DNA of 64,000 nucleotides from Chloroflexota bacterium. Its GTDB lineage: Bacteria; Chloroflexota; UBA6077; SHYK01. The notes below the pieces were generated by a model. The model was not told the DNA's origin. It saw only the letters and a list, made by a program, of their open reading frames with translations, and did no database searches. Where the stretch lies: NCBI GenBank assembly GCA_009692845.1, contig SHYK01000001.1, forward strand, positions 306,400 through 370,399, read 5' to 3'. The translations under genes were made by a program, and so were the position numbers. How positions within the stretch are numbered: the first letter of the stretch is position 1; each line of letters begins with the position of its first letter. Of this stretch, positions 37,034-41,146 are shown one piece after another.

Positions 37034-37927
37034 TTAGATTGGGAGGGCGAGCTGGCGGCGACGGGTGGGCTGGGGTGCCTCGATCAACGCGTGACTCATT
37101 CCCGCTTTTTCCCGAAGCCCGCTGACCTGACCTTCGATGCGCAGCTGGTAGCCGGTGTTTAGCGTTGGCCGAGCGGCGTAGAGCTGCTCATAGGAGGGGG
37201 GCAGCTCAGGAAAGGCCTCGGCCACCGCCTGCATGAAATACTCCTTGACTCCGGGCGGAAGCCGCAGCGCGCCGGTCCAAACGTCCGAGGCACCGTGCTC
37301 GGCGGCGGCCCGAACCAGATCGGTGAGCGACTCGACGTCATCGGTCAGGCCAGGCAGGACCGGGGCGAGAAAAACACTGACCGAGATGCCCGCGGCCGCG
37401 AGCTTTCCGATGGTTTGCAGACGGCTAGTCGGCGACGGGGCACCCGGTTCGAGCTTCTGCAGAAGGTCGCGGTCGAGACTGATCAGGCTCATGTTCACGG
37501 TGAAGCCGGCAAAGCGGGTGAGATCCGTGAGAACGTCAATGTCCCGCCTGATCAGAGTCCCCTTGGTGGTTACGGATCCAGGATTCTCCGCGTCGGCTAG
37601 CACCTCGAGGCATTGCCGGGTGATCCGGTACTGGGCTTCGAGGGGCTGGTAGGGGTCGGTCGCAGTACCGATCGTGATGGGCTCGCCGTGCCAGCCCGGG
37701 CGGCGCAGCTCCTCTCGGAGGACCTCGGCCAGGTTGGTCTTCACGAACAGCTGAGTCTCGAAGGCGGAGGCGGGGAGATCGAGGTAAGCGTGGTAGGCAC
37801 GAGCGTAGCAATAGGTGCAGGCGTGCCGGCAGCCTTTGTACGGGTTGAGCGACCATTTGAACGGCATGCCCTGGACGGCATTGAGGGCGGTTCGGGCCTG
37901 GATTTCGTGAACAACCGGTGGAACCAT
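37034..37927 (-). CDS. Rv2578c-type radical SAM protein (SPL-related)
   Basis: 297 aa from ATG 37927. NPYKGCRHACTYCYAR carries the C-x3-C-x2-C site for a radical-SAM [4Fe-4S] cluster, and ITIGTATDPYQPLEAQY with TRQCLEVL is typical of the subgroup distantly related to spore photoproduct lyase. Reaction unknown. A GGAGG lies 11 bases upstream; GTG 37933 would have shorter spacing, and the open frame begins at 37993. Two GAAC-N4-GTTC sites at 37950-37981 sit directly upstream, so LexA control and a DNA-damage role are inferred. Confidence 0.88.
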   Translation of the reverse strand: MVPPVVHEIQARTALNAVQGMPFKWSLNPYKGCRHACTYCYARAYHAYLDLPASAFETQLFVKTNLAEVLREELRRPGWHGEPITIGTATDPYQPLEAQYRITRQCLEVLADAENPGSVTTKGTLIRRDIDVLTDLTRFAGFTVNMSLISLDRDLLQKLEPGAPSPTSRLQTIGKLAAAGISVSVFLAPVLPGLTDDVESLTDLVRAAAEHGASDVWTGALRLPPGVKEYFMQAVAEAFPELPPSYEQLYAARPTLNTGYQLRIEGQVSGLREKAGMSHALIEAPQPTRRRQLALPI

Positions 37928-37949
37928 GACCACGGAAGCCTCCGTAGCA

Positions 37950-37961
37950 GAACGTGTGTTC
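37950..37961. promoter_or_regulatory. LexA (SOS) box, proximal
   Basis: GAACGTGTGTTC matches the GAAC-N4-GTTC operator known from Gram-positive-type LexA (B. subtilis, mycobacteria). It is 23 bases upstream of the radical SAM ATG, where a repressor would block transcription. Confidence 0.75.
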
Positions 37962-37969
37962 TTATCATA

Positions 37970-37981
37970 GAACGAGTGTTC
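37970..37981. promoter_or_regulatory. LexA (SOS) box, distal
   Basis: GAACGAGTGTTC, the same GAAC-N4-GTTC pattern, with its centre exactly 20 bases from the proximal box, about two helical turns, so two repressor dimers could bind one DNA face. Confidence 0.75.
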
Positions 37982-38150
37982 CCCTGCCGTCAAGGCTCAA
38001 GCCACTGTGCGCACTGCACAATGCGGTAGTGGAAGTTTTCATGCAGGCTGACTGTGCAGACCGATCTGGGTTCGGGGCTAGAATCAGGCCAACGTGGGCC
38101 GAGACTGGGTGCCTGGGTGCCTGGGTGCGGACCTGGGGAGGGGGAGTTCA

Positions 38151-39521
38151 TTGAGGGGATTGAAGCGCATCGGCCTGGCCGCGGCGGCGGTAGTAGGTTT
38201 ACTCACCATCTATGCCGCCAGCACTGCGGCGGCTCAAGGAGCGACTGCGTCGACCGCGGCGATGCCTGCCGCCACGATCGATACCGGCGATACCGCGTGG
38301 GTTCTCACTTCCTCAGCATTGGTTCTGCTGATGACACCCGGTCTGGCTTTCTTCTATGGCGGGCTCGTGCGCAGAAAAAACGCATTGGCGACGATCATGC
38401 AGAGCTTCATCATCATCGGCCTCGTCAGCGTCCAGTGGGCGCTTTGGGGCTATTCACTGGCATTTGGCCCGGATGCCTTCGGAGGTCTGATCGGAGGGCT
38501 TGATTGGATCGGCCTACGAGGCGTGGGCGTTGAGCCCAATGTCGACTATGCACCCACGATCCCGCATCAAGCCTTCATGATCTTCCAGATGATGTTTGCG
38601 GTCATCACCCCGGCGCTCATCACCGGGGCGTTTGCGGAGAGAATCCGTTTCAAGGCGTTCATCTTTTTTACGCTGCTCTGGGCGACCTTCGTGTATGACC
38701 CCATCGCGCACTGGGTCTGGAGCGGCTCCGGTGGAACACTAGGCATCTGGCGCGCGATGGGAGCCCTGGATTTCGCCGGCGGCACCGTGGTGCATGCGAG
38801 CTCCGGCGTGTCGGCTCTGGTGGCCGCGATTTATCTAGGGAAACGCATCGGTTTCGGCCAAGAGCGGCTCGAGCCTCACAATGCAACCATGGTCGTGCTG
38901 GGGGCCAGCCTCCTGTGGTTCGGGTGGTTCGGCTTCAACGCGGGAAGCGCGGTAGCCTCCGGAGCGCTAGCCACCAGCGCGTTCGTCGCAACCCACCTGG
39001 CTACCGCGATGGCCGCGGTGACCTGGATGACCATGAGTTGGATGCACAAGGGCGCGCCTAGCGTGCTGGGAGCAGCGGCGGGCGCAGTCGCGGGGTTGGT
39101 GGCCATTACCCCCGGCTCCGGTTACGTGACTCCGCCGGGTGCATTGCTGATTGGCTTCGGCGCCGGCGTGGTCTGCTACTGGGCGGTGGTGTGGACCAAG
39201 GACCGGTTTGGGGTCGACGATGCGCTCGACGTGTTCGGCATCCACGGCATCGGGGGAACGTTCGGTGCCCTGGCGACCGGACTCTTCGCTACTACGGCGA
39301 TCAATGCGGCAGGAGGCAATGGCCTGTTCTACGGAAATCCCCAGCAGCTACTGACTCAGTTCATCGCGGTGGCGGCCACCTGGGTTTGGGCGGCGGTCGT
39401 CACGCTGATCATCCTCAAAGTCGTCGATGTCACCGTCGGTTTGCGCGTTGAGCCGCACGAAGAGCTGGCGGGCCTGGATGCCTCGATGCACAACGAGCCC
39501 GCCTACGCAGTGGAAATCTGA
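38151..39521 (+). CDS. amt: ammonium transporter
   Basis: 456 aa Amt/MEP channel. A cleavable signal peptide (KRIGLAAAAVVGLLTIYA, cleavage after TAAAQ-like sequence) precedes eleven helices. Family motifs: FYGGLVRRKN, the Phe-gate region, and the pore histidines in GGTVVHASSG and GIHGIGGTFG. TTG 38151 is selected because GGGGAGGGGGAG lies about five bases upstream and it begins a proper signal; the frame opens at 38094. No glnK follows, which is unusual; instead two tiny membrane proteins do. Confidence 0.92.
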   Translation: MRGLKRIGLAAAAVVGLLTIYAASTAAAQGATASTAAMPAATIDTGDTAWVLTSSALVLLMTPGLAFFYGGLVRRKNALATIMQSFIIIGLVSVQWALWGYSLAFGPDAFGGLIGGLDWIGLRGVGVEPNVDYAPTIPHQAFMIFQMMFAVITPALITGAFAERIRFKAFIFFTLLWATFVYDPIAHWVWSGSGGTLGIWRAMGALDFAGGTVVHASSGVSALVAAIYLGKRIGFGQERLEPHNATMVVLGASLLWFGWFGFNAGSAVASGALATSAFVATHLATAMAAVTWMTMSWMHKGAPSVLGAAAGAVAGLVAITPGSGYVTPPGALLIGFGAGVVCYWAVVWTKDRFGVDDALDVFGIHGIGGTFGALATGLFATTAINAAGGNGLFYGNPQQLLTQFIAVAATWVWAAVVTLIILKVVDVTVGLRVEPHEELAGLDASMHNEPAYAVEI

Positions 39522-39534
39522 GAGAGGAGCAGAG

Positions 39535-39618
39535 ATGGAAGTTGCCGCGGGAATGGTTGCCTTTTCACGTTGGCGGTTGCCTGGGCGTTCATGCCTAGCA
39601 ATCGGAGCTAGCCTGTAG
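39535..39618 (+). pseudogene. tiny single-helix membrane protein, frameshifted as sequenced
   Basis: ATG 39535, six bases after GAGAGGAG, opens a 27-codon frame that begins MEVAAGMVAF. If one T is added to the TTTT run at about 39560 the frame continues as TLAVAWAFMPSNRS to a TAG near 39614, giving a 25-residue membrane peptide. This aligns with the 40-residue protein encoded next door (FATMVVTWALVPNRA), so the two are tandem paralogues and this one has lost a base in a homopolymer, in the genome or in the assembly. Confidence 0.5.
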
Positions 39619-39644
39619 TTCGATTACCAGCAAAGGAAGTAATT

Positions 39645-39767
39645 ATGGATTTTGAGATTCTCGGTAGTCTGCTTCTGTTTGCCACAATGGTTGTCACCTG
39701 GGCGTTGGTCCCGAATCGAGCCGAGCGGACCGCCGAAGCTGAGGCCGGGGTGGCGGTTAAAGCTTAG
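39645..39767 (+). CDS. 40-residue single-pass membrane protein downstream of amt
   Basis: Begins MDFEILGSLLLFATMVV, continues with TWALVPNRAERTAEAE and ends in VAVKA. One transmembrane helix of about 18 residues is followed by a short charged tail. AAGGAAG lies six bases before the ATG. It follows amt by 123 bases in the same direction and has a damaged paralogue between. No known family recognised; an Amt-associated small subunit or regulator is a guess based only on position. Confidence 0.65.
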   Translation: MDFEILGSLLLFATMVVTWALVPNRAERTAEAEAGVAVKA

Positions 39768-40956: not shown

Positions 40957-41058
40957 TGCTTCTTCCGAAGAGGCGGTCAGCTCGGAGCCGTCGCGCCGTG
41001 GGCCCAGCCAAGATACGTGAATGGTCTATTTCGCGTCAACGGAGACCCCGACTGGAGT

Positions 41059-41146
41059 GGAGCGACCTTGAGCGGGGTTTGCGGCAGAGCCCCAAGTCTG
41101 GAGCGGAGCGACCTTGAGCGGGGTTTGGGGCAGAGCCCCAAGTCTG
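41059..41146. repeat. two-copy direct repeat, 42-bp unit
   Basis: Two copies beginning GGAGCGACCTTGAGCGGGGT and ending AGAGCCCCAAGTCTG, at 41059-41100 and 41105-41146, differ at one base (G/C) and are separated by four bases. They lie between divergent thiO and mnmA and end 21 bases before the mnmA -10 box. Confidence 0.85.

Follow-up and report, generated by a model that had tools for sequence, protein, structure and literature searches.

Conserved single-helix microproteins encoded beside amt in Chloroflexota, a likely accessory or regulatory subunit of the ammonium transporter

Beside the ammonium transporter gene amt, Chloroflexota carry a previously undescribed family of conserved protein-coding ORFs of 25-49 aa, each specifying a single-helix microprotein, and we consider it likely that these single-pass inner-membrane proteins serve Amt in the role of an accessory or regulatory subunit. 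Two members lie in tandem in the window, the 64,000-nucleotide stretch of Chloroflexota DNA analysed here. The initial annotation had read them as tiny paralogous membrane proteins behind amt, and both match a family model built without any sequence from the window's taxonomic family: copy 2 scores 15.9 bits and copy 1, read in two frames, 19.6 bits, the highest score among 9,472 negative peptides, taken from amt loci outside Chloroflexota, being 13.9 bits. Both linkage to amt and conservation of the reading frame, which that annotation had proposed to seek in relatives, were found.

In the window, amt (38151-39521, plus strand; Amt/AmtB family) is identified by PF00909 (2.3e-126) and by TIGR00836 above cut-off, and its 85% identity to the orthologue in the closest relative, G004, supports a start near 38151. 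Thirteen bases past its end, at ATG 39535, begins the frame-disrupted copy 1 (39535-39611, plus strand, 25 codons), with the ribosome-binding site AGGAG (39525-39529, plus strand) 5 nt ahead of the ATG. Copy 2 (39645-39767, plus strand) is intact, is preceded by the site AAAGGAAG (39632-39639, plus strand), and from ATG 39645 translates into 40 aa (MDFEILGSLLLFATMVVTWALVPNRAERTAEAEAGVAVKA) with one transmembrane helix that ends W-A-L-V-P and is predicted to lie N-out/C-in; the ribosome-binding sites, initially rated good, hold up for both copies. A family model that includes copy 2 finds it in its own genome at E 1.6e-9, and G004 holds a close relative of copy 2 on a different contig (MDLEILASLLAFAALVVTWAVAPSRSPKFSEAKSPVPAAS). 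The view that both ORFs are too short for routine gene callers applies to the 25-aa member, which falls below common limits (the Prodigal default minimum is 90 nt), but the 40-aa ORF is callable.

Copy 1 is intact only after frame repair, as first proposed, its halves lying in neighbouring frames with the break in or close to the TTTT run (39562-39565). Read literally, it gives 27 aa (MEVAAGMVAFSRWRLPGRSCLAIGASL) that are unrelated to the family after the break and score 2.4 bits in the held-out model, and its second half (FTLAVAWAFMPSNRS) sits one frame over, ending at the stop codon 39609-39611. The orthologue in the same place in G004 is intact (MEIVVGLVSFAALGIAWALMPSNRKAAR), and copy 1 read across the break has its W at position 17, as that orthologue does. 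Alignment of 23 genes from the neighbourhood with their orthologues in G004 shows zero split frames, so assembly frameshifts appear to be rare here and a real lesion is likelier than assembly noise, an argument from rates and not a proof. Of the two window copies, the first is probably decaying and the second the functional one.

Two observations concern other parts of the window. The motif GAACNNNNGTTC has two matches in the whole 64 kb (0.92 expected), 20 bp apart at 37950-37981, where a radical SAM gene on the minus strand (37034-37993) starts. The two resemble paired LexA/SOS boxes of the Gram-positive type, which would make the radical SAM gene a candidate DNA-damage gene. Additionally, a 46-bp tandem repeat with two copies (96%) occupies 41052-41143, between a DAO-type oxidase gene and mnmA.

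The ORFs are very short, copy 1 is frame-disrupted and mean column identity among members is about 26%, all of which would fit chance hydrophobic ORFs or remnants behind amt rather than genes. We regard this reading as scarcely credible, because models built without close relatives place 37 of the 47 members above every negative, at E<=1e-3, because dN/dS of the helix region is far below 1 (0.04-0.34 in five groups, higher in most tails), and because Shine-Dalgarno-like sites precede most members. The helix region is under purifying selection, and the held-out models together with dN/dS reject the chance ORF reading.

In the alignment of 47 members, the family signature is small-x3-F-x2-L/M-x3-W-x3-P, in which W and P are invariant (47/47 each) and F is nearly so. 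The pattern first noticed in the two window copies, WA-hydrophobic-P-N-R, survives as W-x3-P with the upstream small-x3-F-x2-L/M, but its N-R is found in few members. Counted from W at 0 (47/47), conserved residues fall on one helix face, with A/S/G at -11 (47/47), F at -7 (44/47) and L/M at -4 (40/47), and with grouped letters the conservation moment has its maximum at 100 degrees (p=0.0003). Lysines and arginines number zero ahead of the helix and 58 in the first 12 residues behind it, a charge bias that by the positive-inside rule predicts an N-out/C-in orientation. The C-terminal tails range from almost nothing to about 30 residues, and no sensor domain is present in the microprotein. An AlphaFold model of the natural read-through from amt to copy 2 (stops replaced by Ser, 38 rows, Amt as monomer) gave a good Amt and placed the copy 2 helix at 498-516 with pLDDT about 76; docking was unreadable in it, the alignment having no depth for the microprotein and Amt being monomeric.

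The association with amt was followed by locating Amt genes, first among 60 relatives, next in 400 genomes of the phylum, and reading their flanks. Of the 121 Amt genes readable in the phylum sample, 58 adjoin a family member (55 downstream of Amt, 2 upstream and 1 behind glnK), 32 have glnK adjacent and 31 have neither, while four more reach a contig end. A six-frame whole-genome search of 61 genomes with the alignment of 47 members likewise found that nearly all strong matches adjoin amt. Of the five genera in the window's family, four have tandem pairs (L001, L003, L004, L005), as does G287; the microprotein lies upstream of amt in G026, G076 and G020, where the copy (L161) scores weakly, and the gene order in G283 (L163) is amt-glnK-microprotein-glnA. 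No terminator-like hairpin was found between amt and the microprotein in 56 loci, and at least 11 loci have one within 150 nt past the microprotein. Copies standing away from any amt are also seen at L154 887-1006 (G004 C8), L155 3442-3576 (G039 C125) and G179 C7:39650-39766, and these could act in trans.

The distribution has clear borders. The microprotein goes with the canonical Amt. A scan of 15 divergent Amts from the phylum, several of which share genomes with a canonical Amt, found a candidate only at G023, and we rejected the idea that the microprotein accompanies every Amt, 14 of these 15 being without one. A SAR202 locus with two Amts (L222) also has an adjacent candidate; the tiny ORFs concerned, at L222 1321-1455 and at about L159 2766-2858 (G023), share ...FGxWVVLP... 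and score 20 bits each, which suggests an older or second association. Outside the phylum, about 73 non-Chloroflexota loci among the best 80 named Amt loci contained zero microproteins, and P-II is nearby in 55 of the 80; widespread bacterial occurrence was rejected within this set.

The Amt sequences themselves may carry a trace of the partner. SAR202 and G023 cases aside, microprotein-bearing Amts form one clade (79 rows, support 99 in FastTree), and inside it T291, K165 and M284, numbered from TTG 38160 of the window gene, take the first three ranks among 453 Amt columns scored for association with the microprotein; columns 286, 290, 294 and 300 of the same stretch are also in the top nine. 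Where the genome has a microprotein, clade Amts bear T291 in 66/66, K165 in 66/66 and M284 in 64/66 cases; where it has none, the counts are 1/12, 2/12 and 1/12. All 64 Amts with the triple, among which those lacking a local microprotein have a copy elsewhere in the genome, come from microprotein genomes, and 140 of 144 Amts without the triple come from genomes that have none. The window Amt bears K165, M284 and T291. The ranking is exploratory, since it was computed on the very data that yielded the sites. In a later search, all ten genomes predicted to lack a microprotein did lack it; of the two predicted positives, G080 failed, having kept M284 and T291 with K165 missing and no microprotein, and in G025 the locus lies at a contig end. 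A tree-based sign test on the covariation rests on about three independent transitions, all losses, and falls short of significance because independent pairs are too few. In the AlphaFold read-through model, from which the Amt helix borders were taken, M284, T291 and the other columns of that stretch map to TM7, in its cytoplasmic half, and to the loop behind it, and K165 to the start of TM4, with membrane sidedness assigned as in AmtB; at the places of 284 and 291, E. coli AmtB has an Ala and a Phe, both within ...TAAAILGWIFGEW....

Ammonium transporters normally come with glnK, and the initial annotation had the two peptides taking its position. This is correct, and a PF00543 search returned zero P-II matches anywhere in the window genome (89% complete) or in its four family members; G003 (98% complete) agrees. 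At E<=1e-6, P-II is lacking in 55 of 60 microprotein genomes, the window genome among them (G039 is counted as P-II-less despite one weak match inside a 444-aa frame, and G024 and G026 have marginal matches only), and in 25 of the 55 microprotein-free Amt genomes examined, the other 30 having P-II (Fisher 5e-8, uncorrected for phylogeny). These counts and the place next to amt could mean that the microprotein replaces GlnK in Chloroflexota that lack P-II and switches Amt on and off, with ample ammonium leading to closure of the channel or to proteolysis of Amt. Inhibition of a transporter by a small protein, or its delivery to FtsH, is known from SgrT, MntS and MgtR (PMC10710835). We find such a replacement unlikely. 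The microprotein shares an operon with glnK in L163 and coexists with amt1-glnK in G017, which weakens the idea of a pure GlnK substitute; it has variable C-tails and lacks a sensor domain; and the 25 examined Amt genomes with neither P-II nor microprotein indicate that P-II loss does not demand one. The early branches of the clade, which include L056 (amt-glnK-microprotein) and members with glnK only, suggest instead that the ancestor had both GlnK and the microprotein and that P-II was lost later, so that the microprotein looks like an Amt partner older than the loss of GlnK and kept afterwards. P-II is detected at E<=1e-6 in only 138 of 400 Chloroflexota genomes, and its absence is common across the phylum, beyond the microprotein finding.

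A helix serving some other membrane complex or a general membrane function, with amt linkage reflecting no more than shared nitrogen regulation, could explain the standalone copies in several genomes and the faint resemblance to FixQ/CcoQ (PF05545), in which one helix is likewise followed by a short polar tail. That resemblance is limited to 12-17 bits against a gathering cut-off of 29 bits (17.4 bits for copy 1 read in two frames; best E 0.0028, 4/47 members), and no cbb3 oxidase genes were seen beside the microprotein, its identified neighbours being amt, glnK, glnA and unrelated genes. As matches adjoining amt dominate the whole-genome searches and three Amt residues track microprotein presence, a function apart from Amt appears very improbable.

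For the favoured role as an Amt subunit, we propose that the microprotein gene is co-transcribed with amt and that the helix would insert N-out/C-in, its stripe (small -11, F -7, L/M -4, W 0, P +4) packing on the membrane-exposed side of Amt around M284, T291 and K165, close to TM7 in its cytoplasmic half and to the start of TM4. Binding may then stabilise the Amt trimer or tune conductance, and in GlnK-less lineages the microprotein would be the sole known Amt partner; it is inessential, since the clade includes Amts that lack it. The binding to Amt, and whatever sign its effect may have, are inferred. The bolder reading that, in bacteria that have lost P-II, the microprotein regulates Amt independently of GlnK, within the membrane and via TM7, seems to us conceivable but rather unlikely.

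Textbook control of Amt consists of Amt plus GlnK, and the title of Boogerd et al. 2011 (reference 97 of PMC10433425) calls regulation by GlnK mandatory to limit futile ammonium cycling. The bacteria described here, which have amt and next to it an unannotated membrane microprotein but in which P-II is undetectable, now make the control or stability of Amt without P-II testable, and three Amt residues together with one helix face are offered as targets for mutation.

Searches of Pfam, NCBIfam, PHROG and PDB sequences gave no credible match to the family, and literature searches among open-licence papers found no Amt-linked membrane microprotein. In form the microprotein fits the class of single-helix transporter accessory proteins, having one helix and being encoded with its transporter. 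Here KdpF and MetS, short one-helix proteins encoded in a transporter operon, offer the same arrangement, although no Pfam or NCBIfam match to these or to other catalogued small transporter subunits was obtained up to E 1. AcrZ, MgtU/MgtS and similar small partners are likewise microproteins, each attached to a transporter within the membrane, which it stabilises or tunes (PMC10710835), but they partner other transporters and show no detectable sequence relation to the Amt microprotein. GlnK, a partner of Amt encoded in the glnK-amtB operon, resembles the microprotein in that its gene directly adjoins that of the transporter; however, it is a soluble protein of ~112 aa whose trimer plugs the cytoplasmic vestibule of Amt by its T-loop (PMC10433425), whereas the microprotein is a membrane helix of 25-49 aa with no match to the P-II domain (PF00543). 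From Methanosarcina mazei, sP36 is a 61-aa protein without a transmembrane helix that acts on AmtB1, moving to the membrane and working with GlnK1 (PMC10714827); by these descriptions it stands apart from the microprotein, which is an intrinsic membrane helix found mostly in P-II-less genomes. Although it belongs to no catalogued family among those tested, the microprotein would work in outline like AcrZ, MgtU or KdpF.
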